From positions 159,164,052-159,228,051 of the forward strand of contig CM060977.1 in assembly GCA_030765065.1 (NCBI GenBank): a DNA stretch of 64,000 bases, read 5' to 3'. The position numbers were made by a program, and so were the translations under genes. Positions 5,896 to 49,431 of the stretch are shown piece after piece. Origin of the DNA: Deroplatys truncata. Its lineage: Eukaryota; Arthropoda; Insecta; Mantodea; Mantidae. The notes beneath the pieces are model-generated. The model was not told the origin of the DNA, ran no database searches, and was given only the letters and a program-made list of their open reading frames with translations. The number at the start of each line of letters is the position of its first letter. Position 1 is the stretch's first letter.

Positions 5896-6412
5896 AAAAA
5901 ATGAAAGAAGATGAAAAGTAGATTCTGAATAGTTAAAGCTGAACTGCAGAACAAAGTATTGGAATGCAAGAGGGTTATCTATGTATATATGTCATGAGAA
6001 AGGAGAAATAAATTCAGGACAAAAATAAATGTTTAAAGGGGAAAAAGAACATGTTCTTAGTAAACTGTAACAGCATTTGAAATGAAGCATGTAATAATGA
6101 AAAAATGTCATATTAAAGTAAAAGTACGTAGATATAATTCAAATAGTATTGTGAATATAAGGTACAAAACAATAAAAAGGGGTAAACATAATTAAAGCAA
6201 AACACTTATATAGCACACAGATAATGTAAAATTATGTCTAGAATTAAGTGATGTAAATATATTTGTGTAGAGGATGAATATTTTGGTAAATTTGTTCAAT
6301 AATTACAAGATGAACCAGGTTAAAAATCTTAAGTGTATAAATTTCTATGTCAGTAATCTAAGAAAGTATAAACATTTTGTTACTAAATAGTTCACGGTAC
6401 AGTATTTGCTAT

Positions 6413-7282
6413 AAAAAAAATCTGATGTGTTACACTCACATGACTTTCTCTACTCTTGTACAATCTAATTTTACAAACGCTTATTCTCCATATGGTTCAC
6501 GTTAATCGAGATATCGAGATGTCAATCTTATTGGTAATTTTCTTGTAGATGCAAGGGAAATATGGTAGCTTTTAAGCGATAGTCAAATATTTTAACGCTG
6601 GTTGCTATGTGGCGCATTCCATTCTCTTTGCATGTCCAGGACATAAAAAAATGAATAACGAATGTGAGAAAAAGTATAAGTATTGTAAAATTTAAGGAAA
6701 TAACAAGCAATATCTCGAAAACGGTTCACTCAACAAAAGAAATGTATATGACATAAGTTGTGTATTTTAACGCGATCTACATTTTTTGTGTAGTAAAATT
6801 TTGTCTATCTCTTATGGTTTACCAGTTATGCAAAAGTCGTTCACAATGAAGAATACTTTTGGAGACATTCCCAGAAAATTCGAGATATACATTTCATTTC
6901 TCATGACATTATCTTAAACATATGATATTTTCATCAAAATCGTTAGAGCCATTTTTGAGAAAATTAAAATTTTCGAAAAATCTTCCATGTAAAGGGTAGT
7001 CTGGGGTGGGGGGATTTTCTTGAAAACCTTCGTGTCGCATCTCTGGAAGATACTGAACCTAAATACCAAGTTTGGTGCTTATCCGACTGTTCGTTTTTGA
7101 GTTATGCTGTTCACAGACACACACACAGACACACAGACACACACACGGACATGTTTCCAAAAATGCTTTTTTTGGATTCAGGAGGTCTCAAAACATGTAT
7201 TTCCGGTGAAATCTCGGTATCGAATTTTTGGGTGGAATGCAATACTTCCCCTACTTACTATACGTAGTAGAGAAAGTAAAAA
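6413..7282 (-). mobile_element. Family 1 copy nested in the LTR element
   Basis: Complete reverse copy from an A-run plus TCTGATGTGTTACACTCACA at 6413 to GTAGAGAAAGTAAAAA near 7282. It contains a CA/GT repeat at about 7119-7147. It lies between gag remains and the 3' LTR, so it inserted after or during the life of the retrotransposon. No protein is encoded. Confidence 0.88.
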
Positions 7283-7496
7283 TTGTAATGTCAGATGTAT
7301 GTATAAACACATTAGACCCGAGCCAGTAAATAGTGGCGAGAAAAAGGCAAAATGTATGACGTGTGTTAAATGCGTGTGCAGTGTTAAGTGCAAGTGATAA
7401 ATACCGTGTGTTATAAGATTCAGGAGACTAAAAACCCAATTATAAAATTTCCAAACAAGTTGTACATATTTATAATTATGTTTCTAGTGGGGCATA

Positions 7497-8362
7497 TGTG
7501 GCAGTATTTTATATCACAACAATGTAAATGCCAGAGTGATTGTAGTGTAAATTAGCATTATTGTATGACAATGATTTGGGATGTTTGTTAATTATAAGCA
7601 TTGTTAGGAAATAAGGTTACACGGCCTCACTGAAACTGACAATAAGAGCGGGCAACAATGAGCGAGGGGGTGAGTTGTTTATTAATTAGAAGAGGCAAGC
7701 AAATGACGTCAGAGTAGCGCGCGTTTCTTTAGAAATGGAGGGAATTTCTTCCCTAGAGTATATGTGTTCGTAATTTTCATTGGATAAAAAAAATAGACGC
7801 TAATGTTTGCGCGTTTTATTAACCAATAGCAGCTCGGTTATAATCTTTAGGCATATCGGGTGAGGGAGTATAAATTATGAATCCAAGAGACGGGTAACGT
7901 TCAGTCCAACAGAAGCACTCGCGGGTAATACGTCGTTCAGTCCAACAGAATCATACACAGGTTAAACGTCGCTCAGTTCAACATAAGTATTCGCGGGTTA
8001 CACGTCGCACAGTTTAACAATCTCTCGCGTCGTAAAGTTAGTTATAAATGTGAAATACGCGAATTAATAATGTGCAGCCAATAAGTGATTATAGTAACAT
8101 AAAAATGATAACAGTTTCAGTCTGGCGTGTATCAAGAATAATTATGTTAAATGAATAAAATGTGACGGCAATAAAAGTGTAAAAACAAATTCTTTTATCA
8201 GTGTTATCTTTCAGTAATAAATCCTTTCCGTTTACACACCCTGTTTAAGAGATATGCTCGACTGAGAAATAATAGCTAGCCGGAGGACAAAGAACCCAAA
8301 ACTCAAAGTAATAAAACAATAACAGGCGCTCAGCAATAAGATAACACGAAGTTACCGCGACA
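7497..8362 (+). repeat. 3' LTR
   Basis: 866 bp, beginning TGTGGCAGTATTTT and ending GTTACCGCGACA. A G-rich run, AGTGGGGCATA, precedes it and may be a remnant polypurine tract. It is followed directly by the GTTG target duplication. Confidence 0.88.
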
Positions 8363-8877
8363 GTTGCTATGTGGCGCATTCCATTCTCTTTGCATGTCCA
8401 GTACGTTAAAAAAAAAAAAAAAAACCAATTCCCATTTGAGAAAAAGTATTGGAAAATTTTAAGGTAATAACAAGCAATATCTCGAAAATGGTTCACTCAA
8501 CAACAAAAAATGTATATGAGATAAATTATGTATTTTAACGCGATCTACATTTTTTGTGTAGTAAAATTTTGTCTAGCTTTTATGGTTTACCAGTTACGCA
8601 AAAGTCGTTCACAATGAAGAATACTTTTGGAGACATTCCCAGAAAATTCGAGATATACATTTCATTTGTCATGAAAATATCTTAAACATATGATATTTTA
8701 ATCAAAATTGTTTGAGCCATTTTTGATAAAAGTAAAATTTTCGAAAAATGTTCCATGTAAAGGGTAATCTGGGGTGGGGGGATTTTCTTGAAAACCTTCG
8801 TGTCGCATCTCTGGAAGATACTGAACTTAAATATCAAGTTTGGTGTTTATCCGACAGTTCGTATCTGAGTTATGCTG

Positions 8878-8915
<38 letters not shown>

Positions 8916-9047
8916 GACATGTTTCCAAAAATGCTTTTTTTGGATTCAGGGGGTCTCAAAACATGTATTTCCGGTGAAATCTCGGTATCGAATTTTTGGT
9001 TTGAATACAATACTTCCCCTACTTGCTATACGTAGTAGAGAAAGTAA

Positions 9048-11182
9048 CAAAGTCGTAGAACCTAAAGCTGTCATTTCCGGGTTTTTCAGCTATGAATTCG
9101 TCAGCAGATTACTACTCAGTTCGTGAAAATGAAGGTCTAGAAATTATACCTACCAAAATGTTTCCAGTAGGTATAGCAAGATTCCCCAGAATAAAATTTC
9201 GCTCTGCCTAATTCAACTGTTTTGCGAAAAGGCTTTATAATAAATTAAAAGTTGCAGTCACGTAGTTTACTATTATGGAATACTTCACGAATGTAAGGAC
9301 TGCTCAAACTAAACCACATTATTGTTGGACAGAAAGTTAAGCGTGAGCTGTATATATCGTGAATTTGATGGAAGAGTCAATTGATTTATTCGGCAACAAC
9401 ATATACATAATGGCCATTTCTGTAGTCAAGCTGGCAAAAGAATGCTGTGCAATATTGGAAAGTACCATCTATGTATATTTTTTCGCATTCATAAAAAAAT
9501 GCAAATTTGTATTAAATGAACAAAATTTCTAGGTTAATCATTGTCATTCAGAAGTAAAAATTATTCTGTCCTACTGCTCTTGGGAGATGCAGCATCAACT
9601 ATTTTGTGTATATCAGCTCTGCCTTTTGGTAGTTGTGCATAACTCGTTTTTTCACTATGTACACATTTCAACGAATACGTAGCATGTGTATAATTGTCAA
9701 ATTACTTTCCTATTTCTACTTTGAAATTTCCCAGAGTATCGCTTTAGCTGGTTTTCACGAAATAATACTTATCTTAATTTTCCCGTTTGGCTCGTTTTTA
9801 TTATTCAGATTTTATTTCTATAAATCAAGGTTATCGTCTTGATTCTCCATACATATATAGCGTAATGCAACAGGTTTTCTTTAGACACCACCTTCACCTA
9901 ATGCTTCAGTGGAATTTGCAGCTGTCAACAATGATGACACTTCATGTATTGACTCACCATTTCAGAAGTCAGTACTTCCATGACTTCGTCAAAGTTTAGA
10001 TGCAAGTGGATGTCGAAAGATCACCCAGCTGTTTGTGGATGAATTCTTTTATTGCCAACCCAAACCAAACGGAGGGAATATATTCATTATAAATGTAAAA
10101 GTAGGTTCAAAATCCAAGGTATATGAACTTACTACCTAGATTTTGTTCATAATCTTAGTGTAGCAGCTGACAAATAACCTTGGCACATTTACATCTAACT
10201 TACAAATTTCCTATCGGCCCTGCCGTAGATTACATTCACCGGTCTAAAGGGAAACTGTAGGTTGATAGAGTTCTCTCACCTGAAAGACTAAAACTAAATA
10301 TTATAAATTAGAAACATTGTTATGATTGAACTTGTGTCCAGCAGAATGTGATTTTCCGACACTTCCTTTTAGCGGAAAGAGGACTAAAATGCCGGGTTTT
10401 CTGTAAGGCGCTGAAGCACAAACGTGCAGTAGGCTGCGCCACGCTTAGTTGCCGAAATGCAAATGGAAATGCTTTATCCAGAAGTGTAAAATAAAATGCA
10501 TACAATTGCATTTTAATCATCAGAATTTAGGAATAAATACCAGCTTTAAAGACATATGAAAAACACAGTATTTCAAACTCCGGTGGATTCAATGCTGCCT
10601 CTTATTGCAAGCACTCACTGGCCAGGCGGGTGTGTCCCAGAGGCTGAAGATAGGATTATCGTAAAAATGACGCTTATTCGGATTGAATCATCGTGATATT
10701 CGCAGACTTACAGTGACGTTTATATCACTCTTATCATTTAGCTTGACCTACAGATTGAGATAAGCGCTAATCACATGACACTTTCTCGTTACTTTGTATT
10801 ATGTAGCAACTATGTATGACAGCCTGCTCCTTTGTAAGCCATAGTAAGTGTAATGCCAAGGTCTAAGGCCTGCTGATCTGAAGCAAGGATAAAATACTGC
10901 ATGGATACAAAGTAACAAACATATTGACATAATCTCTCAGTTTAAAAAATTATTATTCCTGCGTATGGTTACGTAATATAAACAGAAAACGTGGTTGCAT
11001 ATCCCGACAGCTACGTACTATAACGGTATCTTCTTCATAGTTTGTAGCGCCACATTCTGAATAATTGTTGAAATTTTGTCTCAAATATTCTTAAACTATT
11101 TTGGTATTTTGTGATGAGTTTCCAAATGCTTTCCATATATACCGGTACACGGGGTAGTATTTTGAAGAGCTCAAGTGATTCT
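9048..11182. other. Intergenic, no gene seen
   Basis: About 2.1 kb of AT-rich DNA. Frames at 9633-9842 and 9787-9999 are short and lack motifs. I found no TIRs, SINE boxes or sequence shared with other parts of the window. Confidence 0.55.
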
Positions 11183-17330: not shown

Positions 17331-17451
17331 CCAACACTTAATAAAGTGCCGCTTCCTGAGCGAATAAATTAAGTTATGGCATACCTGTTATTTTATTTTT
17401 CGCTCATTTATTTTAGAATTAACTATTATATGTGAGTAGCTTATATTTGGG

Positions 17452-17820
17452 GGTTCTGGATATATTAATGGTTTTTTAATTGGTTCAATTGGTCTTTCAG
17501 GCAAAGGGGACCTAAAGCACATGGGGCTTCTGGATATATTAATGGTTTTTTAATTGGTTCAATTGGTTTAATTGGTCTTTCAGGCAAAGCCGACCCAAGT
17601 AGCGGTACGTTCTGGATAAATTAATGGTTATTTTAATTGGTTCAATTGGTTTAATTGGTCTTTCAGGCAAAGACGACCCAAGTAGCATGAGTCTTCTGGA
17701 TCAACTCAGGGTTACTGCTGGAGTTGGTGGTCTTAAATCGGTTTAATTGGTCTTTCAGGCATAGGGGACCTATAGTGCATGAGTCTTCTGGATCAACTCA
17801 AGGTTACTGCTGGAGTTGGT
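17452..17820 (+). repeat. Terminal tandem array, about 75-92-bp units
   Basis: Five units begin TTCTGGAT and contain AATTGGTCTTTCAGGCAAAG, except that the last is partial. Short sub-repeats TTAATTGGTTCAATTGG lie inside units 1-3. In units 4-5 the sub-repeat is replaced by CAACTCAGGGTTACTGCTGG. Mirror array: 28030-28398. Confidence 0.85.
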
Positions 17821-17998
17821 AATTGCGAGAGTCGCTTACATGTCCACGTGGTGCCATTTACTTGAAGAAGCATTTAAAGGCTCCCTCCTCCTCGGCTTTG
17901 GGTGAGGGAGGTAATCAAAATAATGTATGCATTTCCAGTCAGCTATGAGACATGATTCACCCCTATAAAGTACACAGCGTTAATTCTAATCATATACA

Positions 17999-18366
17999 TC
18001 AAATAAAAAATACAAGTTTCAATTTTTGTGGCTAACACGTCTAACGAATGGAAATGTTTAATTTTCACCATCCGTCACTTGTTGCTTTGCACAACATGAA
18101 TAACATGCTACTTAAAACCATGTATGTATACAGTGAGTGTCATTCCCGGCCACGTGGAAGGCTTTAGAGCAAGACCCCGACCTAAACGCCATCAGCTCAT
18201 ATGCATCAAATAAAAAATACAAGTTTCAATTTTTGTGGCGAACGCGCCTAACGACTGAAAACCTTTTAAAAATCAAAAGGTTTAATCTTCACCATCCTAC
18301 CGAGACTTGTTGCTTTCTACGACATGAATAACATGCTACTTAAAACCGTGTATGTATACAGTGAGG
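17999..18366 (+). repeat. Two-unit direct repeat inside the arm
   Basis: Two copies (about 17999-18137 and 18205-18366) run from AATAAAAAATACAAGTTTCA to AAAACCATGTATGTATACAG. They differ by substitutions and one small insertion. The mirrored pair is in the right arm at about 27484-27850. Confidence 0.8.
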
Positions 18367-18786
18367 TCTCCCTCCACGCCAGTTTAAAAGACGATCGCCC
18401 GACTCTTCTGTCGCGTCCCCTCTGTCTGGAATGCCGGTGATTAAGGCTATTGACTCACCCTTCGTATAAGGGTGGGAATCTATTCACGCTATTGATTTTT
18501 TCCGCTGGCTTCCCTCTCATATAACGCTGCTAGCCATGGACCCTCGCACCCTTGTAAAAGTTCGCTTTATCTACACCAGATGCCAGAAGGTTACAGAACT
18601 AACATTTGTAATTCATATCTGGCACTATAGATACCGGCAGTATCCGATCCGCTATTGATTTTTTCATTAAAACTGCATGAGAGTCAAACACACATTAATT
18701 TATAATGAAAAAAAGTTTCTTTATAGAGATAGCTAATTACAGTGTTACAAGCTGTATGTACAGTGAAATAAAAACGAATCGCATTT

Positions 18787-19087
18787 AAAAAAAATTCTCA
18801 TATGTTACACTCACATGACTTTCTCTACTCTTGTACAAACTTGAGCGGGTTGCCATGTGATGCATTCCATTCTCTTTACATGCCTAGGACATAAAAAAAT
18901 GAATAACGAATTCGAGAAAAAATATAATTATTGGGGAATTTAAGGGAATAACAAGCAATATCTCGAAAATATTTCTGAATAAAACAGGGGGCCTCAAAAC
19001 ATAAATATCCGGTGAAGTCTCATTATCGAATTTTCGGGTGGAATACAATACTTCCCTTACTTACTCTTCATAGTAGAGAAATTTAAA
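18787..19087 (-). mobile_element. Internally deleted family 1 copy in left arm
   Basis: Tail end (TGTTACACTCACATGACTTT) at 18787 and head end (ATAGTAGAGAAATTTAAA) at 19087 are both present, but only about 300 bp remain. The deletion joins ATATCTCGAAAAT to TTCTGAATAAAACAGGGGGC. The identical deleted copy is at 26762-27064. Confidence 0.85.
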
Positions 19088-20337
19088 ATACTTAGTTATA
19101 ACAACGGGAAAGATGTCTTGTATCTTTTTCCCACGAGGTGTATGATTCATACAATAAAGTAATTGAACAATGCCTTTATTATTTAATTAACAGTACACCA
19201 AAAGGCAGACCATCTTTTACAGAATAACTTGTCATTTCCGGAACACGTGTATGCTTTTTTAGAAAGAAATATCTAAATGATACCTTCATTCTAAGTAGGT
19301 TCAAAGGCATTAGTGGTTTGATCATTTCCTGCACTATTTCAACAAGAGTACATAAAAAATATATTACGTAAAGATGATTCAGCGTTCGATTTCATACTGA
19401 ACTAAAGCTTGAAACAAATATTCAGTTTCCAGAACGCTAAAGTACGATTGAAAAGGAATATATACGTTAAATCAAGTTCCATTTCCACGTAAACGGATTA
19501 CGACAAAACTAGAAGAGAAATACAAAAGTAGACTAAAAATGACAGTGCAAGCGCAAATAGTAGTAGTTATTTGGGGACTTTAGCTACTTTCAACTGCAAC
19601 TTATTTTAACTCGAGCAACCTTAAGACAGGGCTTCTATTAGCTAATTTTATAATTAATAAAACAATTAATGTTTGAAAATAGTTCATTAACATACTAATT
19701 AACAAAAATTAATTTAACTCTGAATTTTTCGTTGAAACTCTGTAATCTGCTATAAAATAGCTTGCATAATATATAAAAAATACTCTTACGACATACAAAA
19801 AGCTTAACATACTTAAAGCTTAACCTCGAATGTCAACAACTGAAAAAAAAAATTGAAAAGCGGTAATATGCCAGAAAATGGAGTATAGAATATAGGGAAA
19901 TTATCCTTTTCTTCATTCATCAAGTTTATATGCCTAAAAGATTATTTCCAGGCAAGACGCCAGTGAAGAAGAAATACCAGTTCAGCGCCTGCGCTGGTAT
20001 TATTATCTACTTACTGGGAGGTATATCAACGGTCTCCACTTCAACTCCAGACATGGTCAAACTTTGATGTTTAAAACACTTCTGAGCTATGGCACTTAGA
20101 CATGCTTGACAAGTGCATTAAATTTTACAGCACTAATTGGAATGTTCCGAATAACTAGGCAAGTGTCCCTATGATTTGTATCTCGGAATGGTAAAACATA
20201 AATGTTTAACTGCTAAACAACTGTGATACTCGCGTGGGATAATAATAATCCTACAGCATTATGTGGATATATTGGAGGGGGTTCTCAGGTATACGAGATC
20301 CAGATCGAGTTTTATCTTCGTTCTTTCTCTCTTTCTT

Positions 20338-20560
20338 GATGTACATACATACATACAGACATATCCACACACATACAGACATACACACAGCCGAACACCT
20401 CCCCAAACACACGGACAGGTACGAAGACTTACGAATATATCCGAACATGCACATGCATACCGACTCATTCACGCAGATAAATACTCACAAACAAGCAGAC
20501 TCAGAGATACTCACACACAAATCAAAACAAGCAGACTCAGAGATATACATACACACACAT
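20338..20560 (+). repeat. CATA/CACA-rich low-complexity tract
   Basis: ACATACATACATACAGACAT-type repeats, plus a 25-bp duplication containing AACAAGCAGACTCAGAGATA (about 20491 and 20526). The long frames across it on both strands are chance products. Mirrored at 25290-25510. Confidence 0.85.
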
Positions 20561-21536
20561 ATACTTCCAAACATCAGGAATGAGCGAAGACCTTCGAGCA
20601 CACTCGAATACATGTACAGGCAATATACACACACAGGAACATACCAAACACCAACAGAGAGAGACGCTCTTACCTATAAGCATGGGGGGGGGGCTCTGTT
20701 ATAATATAGCTTCATATATGAGAGGCTCTGTCTTTAGATGATTGTATTGATTAATGTAGCGGTGAAGATGACGGGAATTGCGGGATTAGGGAGCTACGGT
20801 ATTAATGGAGTTATGTGGCGGCGGTGGCGAATGTGTATAGTTACGGTGCTGATGGAGGCAGGCGATGGTCATGGACGTATAAGTTAATGTACTTGTAAGT
20901 GTGAAGGAGTATTTGTGATGGTGGTGATAGGAGGCGATGAGGATGATTATATTGTGGGGAAGGCTTTTGGAAATGATGATGGTGATGAGAGGTGGTGTTA
21001 ATTGTTTCGCTGATGCTGATTCTTTTTTTGTGTGTAGGAGGGCACACATTCTCCTCTCCTCTTGCTATGTGGAATGAGTCGTTACATTGGGGACTTGTAA
21101 AGTGAGATGTTATAACCTGGAAACGTTAAGGACCTCAGCATGTCTCGAAATCTTCAACTTGTGTACTGCTCACTTTCCCTGTAGTATGGTTCTTCATAGG
21201 AAGATCTGTATGGGTGACCTTCTAGCCTTGAAACATTGCATATTCGAGTGCTAACATATTCAATGAGGTTGCGTCATATATCCTCCAATATTACAAGTAA
21301 GGGTAGACTTCATTTCATGCATGGTGAGCTTATGTAATTAATGGAGTAGCTGCAATTAATGTGGAATTCTGTCATAGTCCCGTTTCTTATATAACTTGAC
21401 TGTAAGGTTTATGGTTATCAATGATGTGAGATTACCGATAAAATTAGGAAATAAGCAAATAATTCTACAGTCTCCTGATGACATATGCGGCTGCAGCTTC
21501 GAAATCATATACAGTATATGATATTCTAGAACAAGC

Positions 21537-22103
21537 ATGGATTCCCTTATTGACATTCAAATACAGCCAGCTTACGAAAAGCTTCATTTTTCCTATATTA
21601 CCCATGAGAAGAGTCGTTCTGTCAAGTGTCATATGTGCAGTAGGATTTTAAAAAACAGATCTATTTCAAGACTTAAACAACACCGGCAAAGATGTAGTAA
21701 TGAATCATTGAAGTGTGCAGTACTTAGAACTCCCGTAAGTGATGCTGAAATCTATTCAAGGCCAGGGATGTTAGAGTTAAGCTGTGAAGCGCTTGGATCA
21801 CCCCTGAGTGCTACTGAAATCTCGTCAAGACCAGGGATGTTAGATGTAAAAAGAGCAGTGTCTTTGGATGATGAAACTCTGAATAATCACCTGAGTGAAA
21901 ATAAACATTTTAATGTTAACTCGTCCAGTGTGGGTGATGTATCCAAGGCGAATATTGAGATTTTATATCCCTGTACAGATCCTAATGACTTAGTACACCA
22001 GCTAAGACTGTTAATGATGTCGCATGAAGCTGGTAAAAACGACTTTTCTATTGAGATTAATAAGATCATCCAAGTATTGAAGAGCACTGGGATTATAGCA
22101 TGA
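21537..22103 (+). CDS. BED-type zinc-finger protein, 188 residues
   Basis: An uninterrupted frame from ATG 21537 to TGA 22103, the only convincing intact gene in the window. Residues 31-53 hold a zinc-binding pattern, Cys31-x2-Cys34-x14-His49-x3-Cys53 (KCHMCSRILKNRSISRLKQH), with the spacing of BED fingers, which bind DNA and are common in transposon proteins. Residues 64-107 contain an internal duplication: TPVSDAEIYSRPGML and SPLSATEISSRPGML. The C-terminal half is acidic with a final helix-like segment (INKIIQVLKSTGI). No catalytic domain is visible. An AATAAA at 22123-22128, 20 nt past the stop, could be its poly(A) signal. It sits in the centre of the inverted-repeat element and may be a DNA-binding accessory factor for it. 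That role is inference. Confidence 0.7.
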   Translation: MDSLIDIQIQPAYEKLHFSYITHEKSRSVKCHMCSRILKNRSISRLKQHRQRCSNESLKCAVLRTPVSDAEIYSRPGMLELSCEALGSPLSATEISSRPGMLDVKRAVSLDDETLNNHLSENKHFNVNSSSVGDVSKANIEILYPCTDPNDLVHQLRLLMMSHEAGKNDFSIEINKIIQVLKSTGIIA

Positions 22104-22122
22104 TTGAGACTGAACTCTGTAT

Positions 22123-22128
22123 AATAAA
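22123..22128 (+). promoter_or_regulatory. Poly(A) signal candidate
   Basis: AATAAA located 20 nt downstream of the zinc-finger stop codon. A second AATAAA occurs near 22230. Confidence 0.4.
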
Positions 22129-22259
22129 GAGCTTTCGCATTTGAATGAAATGAGTGTGTTAAAATATTGTTTGCTTCTGTTCAATGCTCTAGTGTTTGCT
22201 TAATGCAAAATCAAATAATAATAATTCTCAATAAAGATATTTTCACCATTGACTTAAGT

Positions 22260-23560
22260 GTTTCTTTTGATTTGCCTTTCTAGCCTCTGTCCCTATTCAT
22301 AATAAAGCCTGATGTTTAGATTTTATCCTTTGTGTATTTTAGGTTTAATACATATATTTTGAGCATTTTAGCCTAATCTGATGGTTCTATAGACAAGAGA
22401 ATGTATTTTAATTAGGTCAGTCCAAGTCTTTGGAGTATGCTGATGGGTTTTATAAATAGTGACAGGTATTTTAGCTGTATTGTATAGGTCACTAGGATAC
22501 TCTTTTACAGTGAGGTGCAGTTATCTTCATGGTATTGTCAGTGAACTATTTATTTGCGAGGGTTTTAGAAATTACACCATGTATTTCATGCTATCGTTAA
22601 GGGTCTTTTTTTAGCATTTTGACGTATTTTACAGTGTATTTAGATGCTCTTGACACTTTTATGTGTATTGTTTATGGTTCTGATCCTGAATGGCCTTTTA
22701 GAAGTGTAGCGTGTATTTTTATGTCATTAGAGTGTCCTGAAGGGCTTTTAGAATTACTGGGTTTTTAGATTATGTGGAGCCATTTTATGCTCTTTTAAGG
22801 TATTGTGACACTTCCAATTATATTTTTCGAAGTTTTTCATATGCATATTTATGACTCTTTAAAGGTATTCCAGCCTATGGAATTAGATATGAGTACAGGC
22901 TTTAAGGACATCCCGATATACTTGAATGGGAATTTTAGATGTTTCTTAAAGTAGTAGCATTCATTTTCAGGATATTGATACATCTTTTTTAAAATTTTCA
23001 GAACATTTTGAATATCCTTTATGATGTTTTTTTTAAGTATCTTTCAAAATACAGACGGAGGGATTGATGTAGGTATTTCAAATATATTTTTCATCCTGTG
23101 ACAGGCATTGTAGTGTATTTTTAGAAATGTTTGCTTGCATTTTAGCCACTGGAATAGGAACTGTAGAGCATTTAGCTGGCGTTTATGAGCTATTAGACAC
23201 AGGTTTTTGGAAAATTATGATCGGTTTTATAAGTAGGAGCTGTTATGTTCATGATATTGCCTCAGATCTTTACAGTATTCTGGTGGTTCTTTAGGCGCGC
23301 TGCTGCTATTTTCAAAGTTTCTGGTAAGAGAATTTGAGCCTCTTTCAGTGTATTTTAAGATGTGAATGAGGTATTGTGACATGCTTTTAGGATGCTATTG
23401 TAATATGGAGAGTGGAATTTCATTTGTAAGTCAGTGCATTAAAGCGAGTATTTATTCTAATTTCAGGAGTTAATGTATTTTCCACTGATTTTTGATACTT
23501 TATGAGCATTTCTTATCCATTATTAGAATAAATATATATACTTTCAGTCCTTTTTTTCTA
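22260..23560 (+). repeat. Degenerate TTTTAG / GTATTTTAG-rich tract
   Basis: Variants of GTATTTTAG, TGTATTTTTAG and CATTTTAG recur at irregular 30-70-bp spacing for about 1.3 kb, strongly T-rich on the plus strand. There is no open frame of note. It looks like an ancient, decayed tandem array or a strand-biased regulatory tract. Confidence 0.5.
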
Positions 23561-23751
23561 AATTTTGTAAGCTTCTATATGTTAAGTAGTTAACATGTGA
23601 GACCGATAGGCACAATCCCTGAATTGGTTAGTTTTAGGTATTGTGGAGTAGTCTAACCTAGCCACAAGCGACCATCCTAAGCCAATCTATCCCTGCCTTA
23701 CCTGCTCTGAAAGATCCTTTCATTATCTATCTTGGCATCGTCCAACCTAGC

Positions 23752-24055
23752 CAAAACGTAACCAACGTAACCACTAAACGTAACCAATGTAACCACTAAA
23801 CGTAACCAATGTAACCACTAAACTTAACCAACGTAACCACTAAACGTAACCAACGTAACCACTAAACGTAACCAATGTAACCACTAAACTTAACCAACGT
23901 AACCACTAAACGTAACCAGTAAATGTAACCACTAAACGTAACCAGTAAATGTAACCAACGTAACCGGTAAACGTAACAGTAAACGTAACCAAACCACTAA
24001 ACGTAACCAATGTAACCACTAAACGTAACCACTAACGTAAATAACTTAACCGTGA
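23752..24055 (+). repeat. GTAACC tandem array
   Basis: About 24 occurrences of GTAACC or close variants, arranged mainly as 22-bp units (ACGTAACCAATGTAACCACT) with shorter units mixed in. It sits near the middle of the inverted-repeat element. It lacks the spacer diversity of a CRISPR array and is not the arthropod TTAGG telomere repeat. Confidence 0.9.
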
Positions 24056-24059
24056 AACG

Positions 24060-24802
24060 CAGCCAACAATGACAATCATGACGAATCCATTCCTAAGACA
24101 TTCTATGCTAGTCTGTTCTTCAAACTCGGACAATCGTGCGAGCCTAACTCTACCTGTTCCCAGACTATCCTGGCGTTATGTATTCTGCCCAGTAATTATC
24201 TAGCCTAATATGATACCATTTCTTATAATCTGTCCAACAATCCAGTCCTTAGCTAGCACTGAATATCCTAACCTATCCTAAGATAGTATAAGCAGGATTC
24301 ACTTCCAGCCTGCTATTAGCTAGCCTAGCTCGATGACGTGCATGTTAACGTGTCTCAATCTTAGTCAGCAGCCCCCCATCATCTATTCAAGCGATCATAA
24401 CTTAAAGCTATAAACTAGCCCGTCCTCTAATTATCTGTGATCCCTATCATAACCTCAGCCAGTCTAACCTAAAGTGGCTTTACACAATGTACGCTATCTT
24501 GGCTTTACCGCTCCTAGCCTAATCTATGTGAAGTCTCTTATATGCTGAATGGAGAGCCTGTCCGAGCTTCATCGGATCCATGCATCACTAAATGTTCTCG
24601 TAAATCGAGAACTTTGAACACTTTAAAAGGAATTCGATACCGTTTACAAGCATATTCGGCATGCTCGCAGTCATTTTTCCCGCTTTATAAGTATTCTAAG
24701 ATGTTGTAAGGACATTGAAACCATTTTATACACTGATAAAAGATTTTGTGCTACTCGCAACATTTCGGTATGTTTTACAGTGTTAGTGTATTTCTTCGTA
24801 AT
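24060..24802. other. Centre of the inverted-repeat element, CCTA-rich, no gene
   Basis: CTAGCCTA, CCTAACC and ATCCTAAG words recur to about 24540, giving a C/A bias opposite to the TTTTAG tract. No coding frame was recognised. Confidence 0.45.
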
Positions 24803-27800
24803 GAATGTGTGCCCTTCTACACACAAAAAAGAATCAGTATCAGCGAAACAATGAACACCACCTCTCATCACCACCATCATTTCCAAAAGCCTTCCCGACA
24901 ATATAACCATCCTCATCGCCTCCTATCACCACCATCACAAATACTCCTTCACACTTACAAGTACATTAACTTATACGTCCATGACCATTCGCCTGCCTCC
25001 ATCAGCACCGTAACTCTACACATTCGCCACCGCCGCCACATAACTCCATTAATACCGTAGCTCCCTAATCCCGCAATTCCCGTCATCTTCACCGCTACAT
25101 TAATCAATACAATCATCTAAAGACAGAGCCTCTCATATATGAAGCTATATTATAACAGAGCCCCCCATGCTTATAGGTAAGAGCGTCTCTCTCTGTTGGT
25201 GTTTGGTATGTTCCTGTGTGTGTATATTGCCTGTACATGTATTCGAGTGTGCTCGAAGGTCTTCGCTCATTCCTGATGTTTGGAAGTATATGTGTGTGTA
25301 TGTATATCTCTGAGTCTGCTTGTTTTGATTTGTGTGTGAGTATCTCTGAGTCTGCTTGTTTGTGAGTATTTATCTGCGTGAATGAGTCGGTATGCATGTG
25401 CATGTTCGGATATATTCGTAAGTCTTCGTACCTGTCCGTGTGTTTGGGGAGGTGTTCGGCTGTGTGTATGTCTGTATGTGTGTGGATATGTCTGTATGTA
25501 TGTATGTACATCAAGAAAGAGAGAAAGAACGAAGATAAAACTCGATCTGGATCTCGTATACCTGAGAACCCCCTCCAATATATCCACATAATGCTGTAGG
25601 ATTATTATTATCCCACGCGAGTATCACAGTTGTTTAGCAGTTAAACATTTATGTTTTACCATTCCGAGATACAAATCATAGGGACACTTGCCTAGTTATT
25701 CGGAACATTCCAATTAGTGCTGTAAAATTTAATGCACTTGTCAAGCATGTCTAAGTGCCATAGCTCAGAAGTGTTTTAAACATCAAAGTTTGACCATGTC
25801 TGGAGTTGAAGTGGAGACCGTTGATATACCTCCCAGTAAGTAGATAATAATACCAGCGCAGGCGCTGAACTGGTATTTCTTCTTCACTGGCGTCTTGCCT
25901 GGAAATAATCTTTTAGGCATATAAACTTGATGAATGAAGAAAAGGATAATTTCCCTATATTCTATACTCCATTTTCTGGCATATTACCGCTTTTCAATTT
26001 TTTTCAGTTGTTGACATTCGAGGTTAAGCTTTAAGTATGTTAAGCTTTTTGTATGTCGTAAGAGTATTTTTTATATATTATGCAAGCTATTTTATAGGAG
26101 ATTACAGAGTTTCAACGAAAAATTCAGAGTTAAATTAATTTTTGTTAATTAGTATGTTATTGAACTATTTTCAAACATTAATTGTTTTATTAATTATAAA
26201 ATTAGCTAATAGAAGCCCTGTCTTAAGGTTGCTCGAGTTAAAATAAGTTGCAGTTGAAAGTAGCTAAAGTCCCCAAATAACTACTACTATTTGCGCTTGC
26301 ACTGTCAGTTTTAGTCTACTTTTGTATTTCTCTTCTTGTTTTGTCGTAATCCGTTTACGTGGAAATGGAACTTGATTTAACGTATATATTCCTTTTCAAT
26401 CGTACTTTAGCGTTCTGAAAACTGAATATTTGTTTCAAGCTTTAGTTCAGTATGAAATCGAACGCTGAATCATCTTTACGTAATATATTTTTTATGTACT
26501 CTTGTTGAAATAGTGCAGGAAATGATCAAACCACTAATGCCTTTGAACCTACATTAGAATGAAGGTATCATTTAGATATTTCTTTCTAAAAAAGCATACA
26601 CGTGTTCCGGAAATGACAAGTTATTCTGTAAAAGATGGTCTGCCTTTTGGTGTACTGTTAATTAAATAATAAAGGCATTGTTCAATTACTGTTTATTGTA
26701 TGAATCATACACCTCGTGGGAAAAAGATACAAGACATCTTTCCCGTTGTTATAACTAAGTATTTTAAATTTCTCTACTATGAAGAGTAAGTAAGGGAAGT
26801 ATTGTATTCCACCCGAAAATTCGATAATGAGACTTCACCGGATATTTATGTTTTGAGGCCCCCTGTTTTATTCAGAAATATTTTCGAGATATTGCTAGTT
26901 ATTCCCTTAAATTCCCCAATAATTATATTTTTTCTCGAATTCGTTATTCATTTTTTTATGTCCTAGGCATGTAAAGAGAATGGAATGCATCACATGGCAA
27001 CCCGCTCAAGTTTGTACAAGAGTAGAGAAAGTCATGTGAGTGTAACATATGAGAATTGTTTTTAAATGCGATTCGTTTTTATTTCACTGTACATATAGCT
27101 TGTAACACTGTAATTAGCTATCTCTATAAAGAAACTTTTTTTCATTATAAATTAATGTGTGTTTGACTCTCATGCAGTTTTAATGAAAAAATCAATAGCG
27201 GATCGGATACTGCCGGTATCTATAGTGCCAGATATGAATTACAAATGTTAGTTCTGTAACCTTCTGGCATCTGGTGTAGATAAAGCGAACTTTTACAAGG
27301 GTGCGAGGGTCCATGGCTAGCAGCGTTATATGAGAGGGAAGCCAGCGGAAAAAATCAATAGCGTGAATAGATTCCCACCCTTATACGAAGGGTGAGTCAA
27401 TAGCCTTAATCACCGGCATTCCAGACAGAGGGGACGCGACAGAAGAGTCGGGCGATCGTCTTTTAAACTGGCGTGGAGGGAGACCTCACTGTATACATAC
27501 ACGGTTTTAAGTAGCATGTTATTCATGTCGTAGAAAGCAACAAGTCTCGGTAGGATGGTGAAGATTAAACCTTTTGATTTTTAAAAGGTTTTCAGTCGTT
27601 AGGCGCGTTCGCCACAAAAATTGAAACTTGTATTTTTTATTTGATGCATATGAGCTGATGGCGTTTAGGTCGGGGTCTTGCTCTAAAGCCTTCCACGTGG
27701 CCGGGAATGACACTCACTGTATACATACATGGTTTTAAGTAGCATGTTATTCATGTTGTGCAAAGCAACAAGTGACGGATGGTGAAAATTAAACATTTCC

Positions 27801-28415
27801 ATTCGTTAGACGTGTTAGCCACAAAAATTGAAACTTGTATTTTTTATTTGATGTATATGATTAGAATTAACGCTGTGTACTTTATAGGGGTGAATCATGT
27901 CTCATAGCTGACTGGAAATGCATACATTATTTTGATTACCTCCCTCACCCAAAGCCGAGGAGGAGGGAGCCTTTAAATGCTTCTTCAAGTAAATGGCATC
28001 ACGTGGACATGTAAGCGACCCTCGCAATTACCAACTCCAGCAGTAACCTTGAGTTGATCCAGAAGACTCGTGCACTATAGGTCCCCTATGCCTGAAAGAC
28101 CAATTAAACCGATTTAAGACCACCAACTCCAGCAGTAACCCTGAGTTGATCCAGAAGACTCATGCTACTTGGGTCGTCTTTGCCTGAAAGACCAATTAAA
28201 CCAATTGAACCAATTAAAATAACCATTAATTTATCCAGAACGTACCGCTACTTGGGTCGGCTTTGCCTGAAAGACCAATTAAACCAATTGAACCAATTAA
28301 AAAACCATTAATATATCCAGAATCCCCATGTGCTTTAGGTCCCCTTTGCCTGAAAGACCAATTGAACCAATTAAGAAACCATTAATATATCCAGAACCCC
28401 CAAATATAAGCTACT
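24803..28415 (-). repeat. Right inverted arm (3613 bp)
   Basis: Inverse of 17435-21051. Differences include one base in the terminal array (AATCCCCATG here against GCCCCATG in the complement of the left arm) and a shortened A-run near 27057. This near-identity implies a young insertion or arm-to-arm conversion. Confidence 0.9.
26762..27064 (+). mobile_element. Internally deleted family 1 copy in right arm
   Basis: Mirror of 18787-19087, with the same internal deletion junction. Confidence 0.85.
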
Positions 28416-28421
28416 TATGTG

Positions 28422-29198: not shown

Positions 29199-30461
29199 TG
29201 TTTTTGGTGCTGATGATAAGTCCATGACTTTGACGAGAGATAGCGTTCTGATCACAGGTTTCTTGTTTGCCCCCAAGTCTTGCATCTGTTCCGAGTATAA
29301 TAGCAGAAATCCGTCAGGTGTTTCTTAGAACATTGTTGAGAGCGTCTAAAATAAGCAGATGTGTTTTGCTTCGTAAAAACTGAAGAAAAGTGAATTTCGT
29401 GTTCTGATAAAGCACTATTTTTGCATGGTAAGACGGTGAAGGAAACGGAAGAAAAGCTTATGCTTTTATGCGGACTCTGCTCCATCACATGGCATGGTTC
29501 ACAAGTGGTTCACAGAATTTCGATGTGGACGTTCGAGCACAAGAGATGCCTTGCGCACAGGACGGCCGGTTGAGTTCACAAAAGAAGAAATGGTGAACAA
29601 AGTTCACGATATTGTGTTGGAAGACCGCCGAGTGAAAATTCGTGAGATGGCCAAGACCGTAAACATCTCGGGTGAACGGGTGTATAACATTCTGCACGAA
29701 TTTTTGGGTATGAGAAAGCTGTCAGCAAGATGGGTGCACAGTTGAGAACAAGCGAATCGTATAACCATTTCACAGGCATGTTTGAACATGTTCCAACGCA
29801 ACCCAAATGAGTTTTTGCGGCGTTATATCACGGTTGATGAAACTTGGATCCATTACTATCAACCTGAAACCAAACAACAATCAAAGCAGTGGATTTCCTT
29901 CGGCGAACCTGCTCCAAAGAAAGCGAAAACCATTCCGTCGGCAGGAAAAATCATGGCAGCTGTCTTTTGGGATTCACATGGGTGATACTTCCACTACCTG
30001 GAAAAAGTTAAAATGATCACAGGTTCACATGCCGCAATGCTGGATCAGTTTTACAAGGAATTGTTAAAGAAACTACCCCATTTGGTGAAGAAAAGGATTC
30101 TCTTTCACCAGGATAATGCTCACAAGTCAGCCATTGCCATCGCAAAATTTGTGGAATTGGGCTACGAACTGCTACCTCAACCATCTTATTTTCCAGTTTT
30201 GGCTCCGAGCGACTTCTTCCTCTTCGCAAACCTGAAAACTGATTCGCTGGGAAGAAAGCCACGTCCAGTGAACATGTAAATGCAGAAACAACCTCATATT
30301 TTGCAGACTTCGAAAAATCATATTTTTTGGAAGGGTTAAAAATTGGAGAAACGATGGATAATGTGTATTGAATTAAAAGGGGACTATGTTGAGAAATACA
30401 ATTGATTTTTTGGAAAAAAATATTTTATTTAAAAAGTCACTGACTTACCAATCCGCCCACG
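29199..30461 (+). mobile_element. Mariner (DD34D) element
   Basis: The 3' repeat ends at 30461 (GTGGGCGGATTGGTAAGTCA inward on the minus strand) followed by TA. The 5' end at 29199, after TA, is diverged but retains GATAAGTCCATGACTTT aligned with GGTAAGTCAGTGACTTT. The length of 1263 bp is typical for mariner. Confidence 0.75.
29389..30405 (+). pseudogene. Mariner transposase (DD34D), multiple frameshifts
   Basis: Coding begins near 29389 (EFRVLIKHYF; the ATG is lost) and ends with KGDYVEK and TGA 30403-30405. The N-terminal helix-turn-helix domain reads APSHGMVHKWFTEFRCGRSS and KIREMAKTVNISGERVYNIL up to 29742. The linker MRKLSARWVHS ends in a stop. The catalytic half has YITVDETWIHYY (first D), then GKIMAAVFWDSHG and LFHQDNAHKSA, where two residues normally found after NA are missing, and LAPSDFFLF (third D). 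Frameshifts near 29745, 29990 and 30270 inactivate it. Spacing and motifs are ordinary mariner. Overall similarity suggests a mellifera-like group, which is inference. Confidence 0.85.
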
Positions 30462-32049: not shown

Positions 32050-33440
32050 GTGATGTTTATAATGCCCAAGGCCTTCTGATGCTCCTGGTCATAAAGAGGC
32101 GCTCCATGGTACATGAAGACTTCAGAATAAACAACCGTTCCCCCCTAGTAGCATAATTGTCCGTTTTAGGAAGAAAATTTCTTACCAGGCCTGCGAATTC
32201 GTCGAACTTTTTTAGGCTTAGGTTCTGTTCGAAATACCCATTCAGCTGATTGACTTTTCTTTTCAGGATCATAACAATAAATCCAAGATTCATCACCAGT
32301 AACGATATTCCAAACCAAATTTGAAGTGCCACCTTGGAGTTTTTCCATTTTTCCTGCGTAAATCAATTGCTGTTGTTTTTGATCGGGAGTCAGTTTATGT
32401 GCAATCCAACAACGAAGTTTTTTACTTTCTCTACTACGTATAGTAAGTAGGGGAAGTATTGTATTCCACCCAAAAATTCGATACCAAGATTTCACCGCAA
32501 ATGTATGTTTTGAGGCCCTCTGAGTTCAAAAAAAGCATTTTTGGAAACATGTCCGTGTGTGTGTCTGTGAACAGCATAACTCGGAAACGAACAGTCGGAT
32601 AAACACCAAACTTGGTATTTAGGTTCAGTATGTTTCAGAGATGCGACACGAAGGTTTTCAACAAACTTCCCCCACCCCAGATTACCCTTTACATGGAGCA
32701 TTTTTCGAAAATTTTAATTTTCTCAAAAATGGCTGTAATGATTTTGATTAAAATGTCATATTTAACATACTTTCATGACAAATAAAATGTATATCTGGAA
32801 TTTTCTGGGAATGTCTCCAAAAGTATTCATTGTGAACAACTTTTGCGTAACTGGTAAACCATAAGAGAGAGACAAAAGTTTACTACACAAAAAAATGTAG
32901 ATCGCGTTAAAATATACAATTTATGACATATAATTTTTTTTTTTTGAGTGAACCATTTTCGAGATATTGCTTGTTATTCCCTTTAATTTTCCAATACTTT
33001 TTCTCAATGGGAATTCGTTATTCATTATTTTTTTGTACGGGTAATGCAAAGAGAATGGAATACTCCACATAGCAACCAGCGCTTAAAATATTTGACTATC
33101 GCTTAAAGCCTACCAATTCCCCTTGCATCTACAAGAAAATTAGCAATAAGATTAACATCTCGATTAACATGAAGCATATGGAGAATAACGTTTGTAAAAA
33201 TAGTTTGTACAAGAGTAGAGAAAGTCATGTGAGTGTAACATCAGTTTTTTGTGTTAATTGTGGATATAAAATGTCTTGAATTTGACTCGTACCAATGCCG
33301 AATGTCGCCCGAATAAGTTCATAATTGTCGTCGATCTTCTTCAAGCATTGGGGCTTCTTCGCCGAATGCATTCTAAGCCGATCCTCACATTGTTTAGGCG
33401 TTAATGACGGTTTAAAATCTAAAAAGTTATAGCCCGGAAA
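32050..33440 (-). pseudogene. Mariner transposase fragment split by a family 1 element
   Basis: On the minus strand the 5' part (about 33440-33251) reads PSLTPKQCEDRLRM, then NYELIRATFGIGTSQIQDIL. A family 1 element interrupts at the codons around LTQKK. Coding resumes at 32417 with LRCWIAHKLTPDQK, then EGG-like linker residues and NIVTGDESWIYCYDPEKKSQ (first catalytic D), ending near 32160 with RRPGKKFSS, and traces to 32057. Joining the two ends gives continuous frame across the insertion point. Residues between the two N-terminal motifs are deleted. The second and third catalytic aspartates are absent. This is a different mariner lineage from the other copies here. Confidence 0.75.
32418..33244 (+). 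mobile_element. Family 1 copy inserted in mariner coding sequence
   Basis: Runs from T-run plus ACTTTCTCTACTACGTATAG to GTGAGTGTAACATCAG. It is flanked by TTTTTT at 32418-32423 and 33245-33250, consistent with duplication of a T6 target that was part of the mariner gene's lysine codons. Confidence 0.88.
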
Positions 33441-34229
33441 TGTTATGTAGTCAAATTCATTTTTGGGTGAACACACAATCTTTAAATGATGATAATTAAC
33501 GAACTATTAATGCAATCTAACAAATTACGCGGTAATCAACTCGCAAAACATTAGTAAGTAGCTATCAAATATAATAAAATTTCATTTGTTTTTGAAAATC
33601 CTGGCATTCTAAAACAATTTCAGTATCCCTCTCGTATAGAGCGTTACGTTCCCAACATTTCTTTCACAAACCTTACTTATTCACTATTGGACGACTGAAA
33701 CGATTAAAGGAGGACACTCTATGGTGCAAAATGTTCCTGAATTTCAGGTGTTCTATATGGAATATTTTATCATAATTAGAGCGTGGATTTGTATGCATAA
33801 TCAAATAGTAAAATATGCATGCAAATATGCACAAAAATGTTTTTAAAAATGCACCGTAATATGTAAAACCAAATGAACACAAATAAAATTGTTTTGTGAG
33901 TAATTTCTTACCAATATGAGTCAGGGCTCTTGCGCCTCGCCACCATTAGCCCATGGCCGTCCTGAAACCTTGTAAAAGTCCACTGGTTTCAGGATTTAAC
34001 CTAAGATTAGGCTAGGATGTGTGAGAACCATATTCAAAGTGGTTACGAGGAAATCTGGTCATTTCAGTGGCCCTGAAAATATGGATCCAATACTTGATAA
34101 TTTTGTACATTTATCACCATTTTTCATCCCCATGTTGATGGGTGGCTGAACTTAGACATAATGTAAGCGGTATGTCCTGTTCATTTCAAAGACCTTGAAA
34201 ACTATAAATTTGACACTGGTATCAGTAGC
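33441..34229. other. Intergenic, no gene seen
   Basis: The minus frame 33673-33882 shows no motif. Nothing else was recognised. Confidence 0.5.
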
Positions 34230-34363
34230 TTTTTTACTTTCTCTACTACGCATAGTAAGTAGGGGAAGAATTATATTCCACCCAAAAATTCCATACCGAG
34301 ATTTCACCGGAAATATATGTTTTGAGACCCCCTGAATAAAAAAAAAGCATTTTTGGAAACATG

Positions 34364-34399
<36 letters not shown>

Positions 34400-35216
34400 T
34401 ATGAACAGCATAACTCAGAAACGAACAGTCGGATAAACACCAAATTTGGTATTTAGGTTCAGTATCTTCCAGAGATGCGACACGTAGGTTTTCAAGAAAA
34501 TACCCTCACCCCAGATTAAGCTTTACATGGAACATTTTTCGAAAATTTTAATTTTCTCAAAAATGGCTCTAACGATTTTGAATAAAATACCATGTTTAAG
34601 ACATTTTTATTGCAAATGAATTGTATATCTTCAATTTTTTGGGAATGTCTCCGAAAGTATTCTTCATTGTGAACGACTTTTGCATAACTGGTAAACCATA
34701 AGAGATAAGACAAAATTTTACTACACAAAAAATGTAGAACGCGTTAAAATACGCGATTTATGTCATACATTTTTTTTTTTTTTGGTTGAGTGAACCATTT
34801 TCGAGATATTGCTTGTTATTCACTTAAATTTTCCAATACTTGTACTTTTTCTCAAATGGAAATTCGTTATTCATTTTTTTTGTCTTGTATATGCAAAGAG
34901 TATTAATCTGTGGCAAAGAGAATGGTGCTCCACATAGCAACCAGCTATTACGAGATTTGGCTATGCTTAAAGGCTGCTGTATTTCTATATTGCCCTTGCA
35001 AATACAAAACAAGGGGAACATAGTAGGCCTTAAGCGATAGTCAAATATTTTGAGAACTGGTCGCTATGTATAAAATGTAATTCTCTTTGCATGTCAAAAG
35101 ATCGTTTCTGCAAATGTTTATCTCGATTAATATGAAATAGATGGAGCATAAGAGTTCGTAAAAATAGTTTGTACAAGAGTAGAGAAAGTCATGTGAGTGT
35201 AACACATCAGATTTTT
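34230..35216 (+). mobile_element. Family 1 copy with rearranged tail
   Basis: Head at 34230 (TTTTTTACTTTCTCTACTAC), GT repeat at 34367-34398 and tail end at 35216 (GTGTAACACATCAGATTTTT). It is about 150 bp longer than other copies. The CATAGCAACCAGC region near 34930 is followed by an inverted partial copy of itself (about 34992-35098, AGCGATAGTCAAATATTTTG), forming an internal hairpin. Confidence 0.85.
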
Positions 35217-41340: not shown

Positions 41341-41768
41341 CATTTATGTCATATACTTTATGCCCCGGACATGCAAAGAGAAATGAAAGTCTTCACATAG
41401 CAACCAGCTCTTAAAGGATTTGACTATCGCTTAAAGCTTACCATATTCTCCTTGCACCTACAAGAAAATTAGCAATAAGATTAACATCTCGATTAACATG
41501 AAGTAGATAGAGAATAAGCGTTTGTAAAAATAGTTCGTACAAGAGTAGAGAAAGTCATGCGAGTGCAACACATCAGATTTTTTTCACGTCGAATTTCTCT
41601 TAATATACCTACTCAAGAAGCTACAAGTAAAACGTACACACTTCGCTCACACGCATTTCCTTGTAAGATCACTTCCAATGTATATATATTGACCTACCGC
41701 TAATTTATGCCGTGCGTTCAGTATGTACCTCACTGGTGCAACATTACAAACTACCACATTGCAGACTA

Positions 41769-42595
41769 TTTTTACTTTCTCTACTACGTATAGCAAGTAG
41801 GGGGAAGTATTGTATTCCACCCAAAATATTCGATACCGAGACTTCACAGGAAATACCCCCTGAATCCAAAAAAAGCATTTTTGGAAACATGTCCGTGTGT
41901 GTCTGTGAACAGCATAACTCAGAAACGAACAGTCGGATAAACACCAAACTTGGTATTTAGGTTCAATATCTTCCATACATGCGACACGAAGGTTTTTAAG
42001 AAAATCCCTCCACCCCAGACTACCCTTTACGTGGAACATTTTTCGAAAATTTTAATTTTCTCAAAAATGGCTCTAACGATTTTGATTAAAATATCACATG
42101 TTTAAGATATTGTCATGAGAAATGAAATGTATATCTCGAATTTTCTGGGAATGTCTTCAAAAGTATTCTTCATTGTGAACGACTTTTCCATAACTGGTAA
42201 ACCATAAGAGATAGACAAAATTTTACTACACGAAAAATGTAGATCACGTTAAAATAAACAACTTATGTCATATACATTTCTTTTGTTGAGTGAACCATTT
42301 CGAGATATTGCTTGTTATTCCCTTAAATTTTCCAATGCTTATACTTTTTCTCAAATTCGTTATTCATTTTTTTATGTCCTGGACATGCAAAGAGAATAGA
42401 ATGCGCCACATAGCAACCAGCGTTAAAATATTTGAGTATCGCTTAAAACCTACCATATTCCCCTTGCATCTGCAAAAAAATTACAAATAAGATTGACATC
42501 TCGATATCTCGATTAACATGAAGCATATGGAGAATAAGCGTTTGTAAAAATAGTTTGTACAAGAGTGGAGAAAGTCATGTGAGTGTAACACATCA
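41769..42595 (+). mobile_element. Family 1 copy
   Basis: About 827 bp from TTTTTACTTTCTCTACTACG to GAGTGTAACACATCA. The part between ACAGGAAATA and CCCCCTGAAT is shortened. It lies 184 bp after the preceding copy in the same orientation. Confidence 0.88.
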
Positions 42596-48900: not shown

Positions 48901-49290
48901 GACTTGGATGTGCAAAGAGTATTATCTGTGGCAAAGGGAATGGTGCTGCACCTAGCAACCAGCTATTAAGAGATATGTATGTGCTTAAAGGCTACTGTAT
49001 TTCTGTATTGCCCTTGTAAATACATATTCCCCTTACATCTACAAGAAAATTAGCAATAAGATATAGTCTGCAAATATTTATCTCGATTAACATGAAGTAG
49101 ATGGAGAATAAGAGTTTGTAAAAATAGTTTGTACAAGAGTAGAGAAAGTCATGTGAGTGTAACACATCAGATTTTTTTTTATTCAGGGCGCATCAAAAGA
49201 TGTATTTCCGATGAAAACTCGATATCGAATTTTTGGTTGCATGCAATACTTCCCCTGCTTACTATCTATAAGTAGTAGAGAAAGTAAAAA
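48901..49290. mobile_element. Chimeric family 1 fragment: tail joined to inverted head
   Basis: 48901-49180 is a forward tail segment (variant with GTGGCAAAGGGAATGGTGCT) ending ACACATCAGATTTTTTTTT. 49181-49290 is an inverted head segment (ATTCAGGGCGCATC...) ending AGTAGTAGAGAAAGTAAAAA. Confidence 0.75.
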
Positions 49291-49431
49291 TGCTCCTTAC
49301 AATGCAATTTTCATAATTTTTAAACATTTGAGATTTATGTTCCTTGCTGAACTAGAAAAAAGTATGCTAAACGTATACTTTTAAATTAATTGGTTTAAAA
49401 CTTTGTTTCGTTCTGAGTTGCGGCTTTTGCG

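Follow-up and report, generated by a model that had tools for sequence, protein, structure and literature searches.

The element at positions 17435 to 28415 of the window, by which we mean the whole 64,000-nucleotide stretch of DNA that was analysed, is a palindrome of one whole and one truncated arm. It has the ends and the 6-bp target site duplications (TSDs) of Polintons resident in the same genome, and its arms reach into the start of the Polinton first open reading frame (ORF). Taken as a whole, it is probably a satellite, itself non-autonomous, of a Polinton/Maverick in this genome, of likely fold-back origin and encoding a putative adaptor protein. Its features are as follows; C5 is a gene-bearing relative with the same ends.

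17435..28415, no strand: whole element, 10,981 bp, defined by the inverted arms and the exact TSD
17429..17434, no strand: left TSD TATGTG, directly adjoining the left end
28416..28421, no strand: right TSD TATGTG, directly adjoining the right end
17435..21051, plus strand: left arm, cut at arm position 3617, 99.1% identical to the right arm
24803..28415, minus strand: portion of the right arm also present on the left, from the inverted-arm alignment
21050..28415, minus strand: complete arm that runs from the right terminus to where the palindrome axis used to lie, by mapping onto relatives
21052..24802, no strand: single-copy centre, with a counterpart on both sides of the axis in fuller palindromes
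17435..17820, plus strand: subterminal tandem repeats with units of 83-92 bp, mirrored at 28030-28415
17435..19951, plus strand: segments in common with the left end of C5, 85-96% identity, mirrored in the right arm
19889..20050, plus strand: relic of the start of the Polinton first ORF (residues 1-45), tblastn 44%, E=1.6e-6
21537..22103, plus strand: 188-aa ORF with a BED-like zinc finger, a linker and a Polinton-type C-terminal tail, from ORF, profile and alignment
21972..22100, plus strand: 43-residue tail, 58% identity to the tail of a C5 protein, E=1.75e-10

The first-pass annotation of this DNA had described inverted arms of about 3.6 kb, AGTAGC/GCTACT termini and an exact TATGTG TSD, all of which we recovered; the arm alignment of 3,621 columns contains 20 substitutions and 12 columns with gaps. 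Within the window, the 30-bp terminus occurs at two places only, both of them element ends (allowing up to 3 mismatches), and it found zero matches in 100 shuffles of the sequence. The shortened form of the palindrome had been overlooked, as had the element's own gene. Sequence past the end of the left arm maps beside the palindrome axis of relatives, and the complete arm maps outward along one arm of palindrome C16a, its start adjoining the axis on both arms of C16a (L013) and C6 (L023). Counterparts of the 21052..24802 centre flank the axis both ways in L013, L015 and L017. The subterminal repeats are candidate protein-binding sites.

Long-read chimaeras are able to create mirror sequences, and a mirrored read in the library or assembly was weighed as a source of the palindromes. 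Outside the TSD, the two flanks of the window element bear no relation to one another, which excludes a mirrored assembly artefact here; the annotation had argued against an assembly palindrome from the TSD. By scripted comparison the left and right flanks were unrelated in nine of ten elements, and in the tenth, C16b, the 40 bp of flank per side look unrelated by eye. The arms also differ by substitutions and the TSDs recur at many places, leaving an artefact extremely improbable.

The 4.29-Gb genome from which the window comes contains many relatives of the element. Exact 6-bp TSDs were present in 16 of the 17 elements with both flanks readable (the window counted, and two elements with unreadable flanks, C10b and C8n, left out), the remaining one matching at five of six positions, while AGTAG..CTACT was present at both ends of all 17 elements read. 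At eight places with the window terminus a Polinton integrase lies 7.2-7.7 kb inward; among these is C10:45302945, the relative closest to the window end (97%). C5 is itself a Polinton, with matches to rve (5.7e-12), a Pox_A32-type ATPase (1.1e-6) and the double-jelly-roll (DJR) capsid (3.8e-71); no polymerase profile matched its ORFs, including those at the place expected for the protein-primed DNA polymerase B. The first-pass annotation had suggested searching for further copies, the lack of any second copy being taken as refutation, and for a longer autonomous copy between the same termini. Further copies proved numerous, with a recurring 6-bp TSD, and C5 is a same-ended copy that carries Polinton genes.

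The arms of the window element are two inverted copies of the C5 left end, matching it in arm coordinates 1-721, 763-1408, 1409-1774 and 1981-2517. Arm positions 1-350 match both terminal repeats of C5, at 92.2% identity for the left one and 90.3% for the right. The first-ORF relic is mirrored at 25961-25800, and by tblastn two of 14 C5 ORF pieces match the window, namely residues 1-45 of the first ORF and the 43 C-terminal residues of one other protein. Over positions 1-707 both arms are 90-98% identical to C5, versus 76-92% to C16a, C16b, C7 and C10a; counting against an exclusive tie, other palindromes reach 81-96% in this helper-like terminal segment, and C2b 95.6% in 351-707. The annotation had seen no integrase, ATPase or capsid gene, which holds as far as tested, as these three C5 ORFs gave no tblastn match in the window. 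For this reason the element is filed as a non-autonomous Polinton derivative and not as a Polinton.

That derivation had been offered alongside a new group of giant terminal inverted repeat (TIR) elements, and it is the derivation that stands, on the same-ended Polintons and the recurring TSD. An independent giant-TIR superfamily would have its own transposase, foldback-like or from a hAT relative with 6-bp TSDs, and would have converged on Polintons. It would suit the giant arms, the lack of integrase inside and the BED-like finger, such fingers occurring in hAT transposases. However, several arm blocks align at 85-96% with a Polinton left end, and the presence of same-ended, integrase-bearing Polintons in the genome in practice already refutes it, so that we give it almost no chance. 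TSDs of the hAT superfamily are 8 bp long, versus 6 bp here.

Of nine further relatives with left ends that were fetched, five are near-complete palindromes of ~15-16 kb, which is roughly Polinton length, and 13 full-size outward pairs of left ends, five of them with the interior read, span 14.5-16.5 kb from match end to match end. Polintons with both ends (n=5) measure ~15.3-17.3 kb. Right-right elements also exist; the one on C11 is 16.6 kb long, and its axis lies inside the integrase gene, where the sequence is self-inverted at 98.2% over 1,230 bp without a spacer. We infer that fold-back during Polinton replication best accounts for the left-left and right-right forms. Counting against this, one of three right-right elements is asymmetric at its centre, and C2a has a different axis.

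While linear Polinton DNA replicates, the growing strand would probably fold back or switch template, so that copying of half of the genome yields a mirror dimer whose two ends are identical, and the Polinton integrase would then be likely to insert this dimer, making the 6-bp TSD. Since no polymerase was recognised in C5, the replication step rests on known Polinton biology (PMC4028283). By going repeatedly through a hairpin or panhandle form, the element would likely keep its arms alike and leave both able to acquire helper ends, and the length near Polinton genome size may plausibly reflect packaging.

Arms within an element are 98.1-99.9% identical (nine palindromic elements compared), and left arms between elements 83.3-99.0% (36 pairs), a range that overlaps the first. 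Gene conversion homogenises chromosomal palindromes, and in the host it could be an alternative cause of the likeness of the arms. The corresponding explanation is host repair, in which an integrated Polinton suffered a break that was mended by fold-back or single-strand annealing, and the product was later mobilised in the manner of a MITE, with gene conversion keeping the arms alike and the BED ORF a passenger. The close likeness of arms within an element agrees with it, as does the lack of a significant sign of selection among recent copies of the BED ORF (synonymous excess, P=0.077; ratios of single pairs 0.27-2.66). Against it are the exact 6-bp TSDs on the two outer flanks, from which it follows that the mirror form predates its insertion, the near-Polinton length of both left-left and right-right forms, and the recurrence of the BED-tail layout in proteins with no more than 32-33% identity to that of the element. 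We consider host repair unlikely, and prefer fold-back during Polinton replication.

The 188-aa ORF had 150 scored matches in the genome at 95-100% identity, 98 of which form 49 neighbour pairs less than 6 kb apart, all 49 divergent (-/+). The layout is found also in two database proteins, P0004 and P0006, to which the identity given above refers, and zf-BED scored below the Pfam cut-off in all four members scanned. A Pfam scan covering the largest ORF of the element (one of 34 stop-to-stop ORFs of at least 60 aa) gave a weak BED match and nothing else, such as a hAT transposase domain. The C5 protein with the matching tail is encoded beside the integrase. Its relatives carry the database label PF26634 (DUF8207), though our own Pfam scans did not assign PF26634 to the C5 protein or to P0001; the alignment of the 188-aa protein with this PF26634-related protein covers the last 43 residues only and not the whole protein. 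An adaptor role is plausible, in which the finger would bind satellite DNA and the tail would dock where the tail of the Polinton protein usually does. If so, the protein would point to the Polinton part where the common tail docks.

To our knowledge, replicating or packaged Polinton genomes have hardly ever been seen. Mirror-image elements that carry the left or the right end twice, with about Polinton length and the usual TSD, are the leftovers expected from fold-back of a linear, end-primed genome, and may therefore be a fossil record of the Polinton replication cycle. Polintons are suspected to be viruses (PMC4028283). We put forward only tentatively, as possible, a class of hyperparasites: palindromic Polinton satellites born by fold-back replication, of helper length and borne in Polinton particles, with a custom adaptor, the BED-like finger joined to a Polinton protein tail, that brings satellite DNA into the helper's replication, packaging or integration machinery. 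If true, phage satellites would have a counterpart in animals.

Polinton/Maverick ends are 5'-AG..CT, and the element resembles Polintons in these ends, in its 6-bp TSD and in the terminal and left-end sequence of gene-bearing copies. Polintons have been described with 6-bp TSDs and long TIRs (PMC8969392). The window element differs in having no integrase, ATPase or capsid match, and the satellite in having its own BED-tail gene; the palindromes have arms of 3.6 to ~8 kb versus ~360 bp in C5, and two left ends versus the left and right ends of a Polinton. The SYREC of adenovirus 12 are symmetric recombinants that have the viral left end twice, enclose foreign DNA and are approximately as long as the viral genome. 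Mirror DNA, two left ends, foreign DNA in the interior and a length near that of the parent genome are shared with the present elements; however, SYREC came from virus stocks, whereas the elements here are integrated with TSDs in many copies. Foldback (FB) and Galileo elements also have very long arms and internal tandem repeats, but differ in their ends and TSD, and the related gene-bearing element here is a Polinton. Virophages and the P4/PICI phage satellites are likewise parasites of a virus-like element, with few genes of their own, any takeover of helper functions being putative here.

The arms, termini and target site duplication (TSD) that the first-pass annotation had described for the element at 17435-28415 were confirmed: the 3.6-kb inverted arms are 99.1% identical, the termini are AGTAGC/GCTACT, and an exact TATGTG stands on both sides, between left and right flanks that are unrelated to each other. 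The right arm runs at full length from an axis at about 21050 to the terminus, while the left arm ends at arm position 3617. Because the sequence that follows maps beside the axis of two related elements, C16a and C6, the element in the window can be read as a palindrome shortened in one arm, with a single BED gene left. Pieces of a dispersed repeat lie at the same place in both arms, so its entry predates the latest homogenisation of the arms. Features of the window are as follows, the Tc1/mariner likeness having been judged by eye from motifs.

21537-22103, + strand: 188-aa ORF, the BED gene
18784-19097: pieces of the dispersed repeat
6412-9052, 32418-34900, 41765-42601, 47157-50595, 54473-55313: many copies of the same repeat, roughly 850 bp
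1-723, 29440-30276, 44376-45303, 62389-63404: Tc1/mariner transposase-like fragments

Comparison of the terminal 501 bp with the genome assembly (4.29 Gb, 818 contigs) yielded 45 match rows (40 of the 857 candidates being scored), and among these are 11 outward-facing inverted pairs, the window's own included; the ten others were fetched. One, C5, is a gene-bearing Polinton. Near-complete palindromes account for five of the other nine left-ended relatives (C2a, C16a, C16b, C7, C6), in some of which a centre of a few hundred bases is unmirrored; the remaining four (C10a, C10b, C2b, C16c) are shorter or lack symmetry. Element ends were also fetched for five of 49 BED gene pairs (C7n, C5n, C1n, C14n, C8n). 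Among elements with both flanks read, window included and leaving out C10b and C8n (whose right end lies beyond the fetched stretch), 16 of 17 TSDs are exact and one matches at 5/6.

Window terminus, exact: C2a GCCCTC; C5 AATGAA; C16a CAGGGG; C16b ACCCTG; C7 AACTCC; C10a CATGTA; C6 GTACTC; C16c CTCCTG
Window terminus, 5/6 matching: C2b
BED pairs, exact: C7n TAGATG; C5n GCGGTA; C1n CATGCT; C14n TACGTT
Two right ends, all exact: CGCATT, AATGAG, AAGGTG

Full-size outward left-end pairs (n=13, five read through) measure 14.5-16.5 kb between match ends and shorter ones (n=7) 7.9-12.8 kb; the five Polintons in which both ends were located span about 15.3-17.3 kb, the last 300 bp being estimated in four. 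The axis of C2a differs from that of BED-type palindromes and lies inside a short ORF (L009:8084-8371), which matched no C5 ORF piece. A further ORF, containing 13-residue repeats and 332 aa long in C2a, is present in three palindromes (L009:3142-4137, L010:2360-3373, L023:3114-3968, L025:9159-9926) and has no Pfam match above cut-off.

C5 spans 16.6 kb, its terminal repeat measuring about 360 bp. Among its ORFs there are matches to rve integrase, Pox_A32 and, over two ORF pieces, a DJR capsid; a T7-tail-fibre model matched just above cut-off, Adeno_PX, Josephin and Peptidase_C5 fell below it, and no polymerase was matched by profile. The window arm aligns with the first 3.2 kb of C5 in several blocks (85-96%) and also contains a relic of residues 1-45 of its first ORF. 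At eight places in the genome the window terminus is accompanied, 7.2-7.7 kb further in, by an integrase encoded on the opposite strand, and the C16a-type terminus (best 96%) forms six Polinton left ends, counted from six integrase rows chosen by eye, with the integrase at 7.4-7.5 kb (five) or 8.3 kb (one). Several end variants thus occur in Polintons and palindromes alike. Integrase matches (125 scored of 12,395 candidates) form two groups, at 93-100% and 80-82%; frames of the latter are mostly open genome-wide.

Arms within one element are 98.1-99.9% identical (nine palindromic elements), and left arms between elements 83.3-99.0% (36 pairs), a range that overlaps the former. Positions 1-707 of the window arm are 92-98% identical to the C5 left end and 90% identical to the right repeat of C5, but 81-96% to the C2a, C2b, C6 and C16c palindromes and 76-92% to C16a, C16b, C7 and C10a, to which the segments from 1409 on are 92-98% identical. 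Both window arms carry this mixture, and the sequences are suggestive of an exchange of ends between Polintons and these non-autonomous palindromes (satellites), while each satellite's arms template one another.

Elements with two right ends occur as well. Among 40 scored right ends there were three outward-facing pairs, known from their ends and, in two, from the centre.

C11:142531204-142547831: 16,628 bp, axis within the integrase; an inverted self-match with no spacer covers 1,230 bp at 98.2%, and this stretch is about 98% identical to C5
C6:121777325-121785527: 8.2 kb; 1,051 bp at the centre match the C5 protease region, with no self-inversion in the 1,051 bp read
C16:630002631-630016439: 13.8 kb, spanning an integrase match

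Because the mirror form lies between TSDs, it predates insertion into the genome. If the copying of a linear, end-primed genome went wrong, for instance by fold-back, left-left as well as right-right forms would be expected.

A CxxC...HxxxxC finger in the 188-aa ORF matches zf-BED weakly (E 0.048 in the window, 0.0035 in C16a). The ORF also encodes a 43-residue tail sharing 58% identity with the end of a C5 protein, the ORF of which overlaps that of the integrase. Relatives of that protein bear the database label PF26634, which our Pfam scans did not return. Finger and tail occur together in two of 85 proteins from two database searches (P0004 and P0006, on contigs of about 1.1 kb), 32-33% identical to the window protein; in an alignment of five rows, including three nearly identical copies from the present assembly, 39 columns are invariant. 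AlphaFold2 predicts a two-helix tail in both BED-tail and Polinton-type proteins. The joining of a finger to a Polinton-type tail suggests an adaptor, in which the finger would sit on satellite DNA and the tail in the complex of the helper Polinton; the protein could equally well be a competitor of the Polinton protein. Of 6,712 candidate BED matches in the genome 150 were scored; these are 95-100% identical, and 13 contain a stop. Neighbours less than 6 kb apart account for 98 of them, in 49 pairs that are all divergent. Stops occur in 4/98 paired versus 9/52 unpaired matches (Fisher p=0.012), in a test where arms of a pair are non-independent and matches were selected by score. Among recent copies, substitution counts gave no significant result.

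Both Polintons and non-autonomous transposons are already known; our searches of an open-licence library turned up no description of Polinton derivatives in palindromic form, nor of a BED-tail protein. A precedent for mirror-form viral DNA is adenovirus SYREC.
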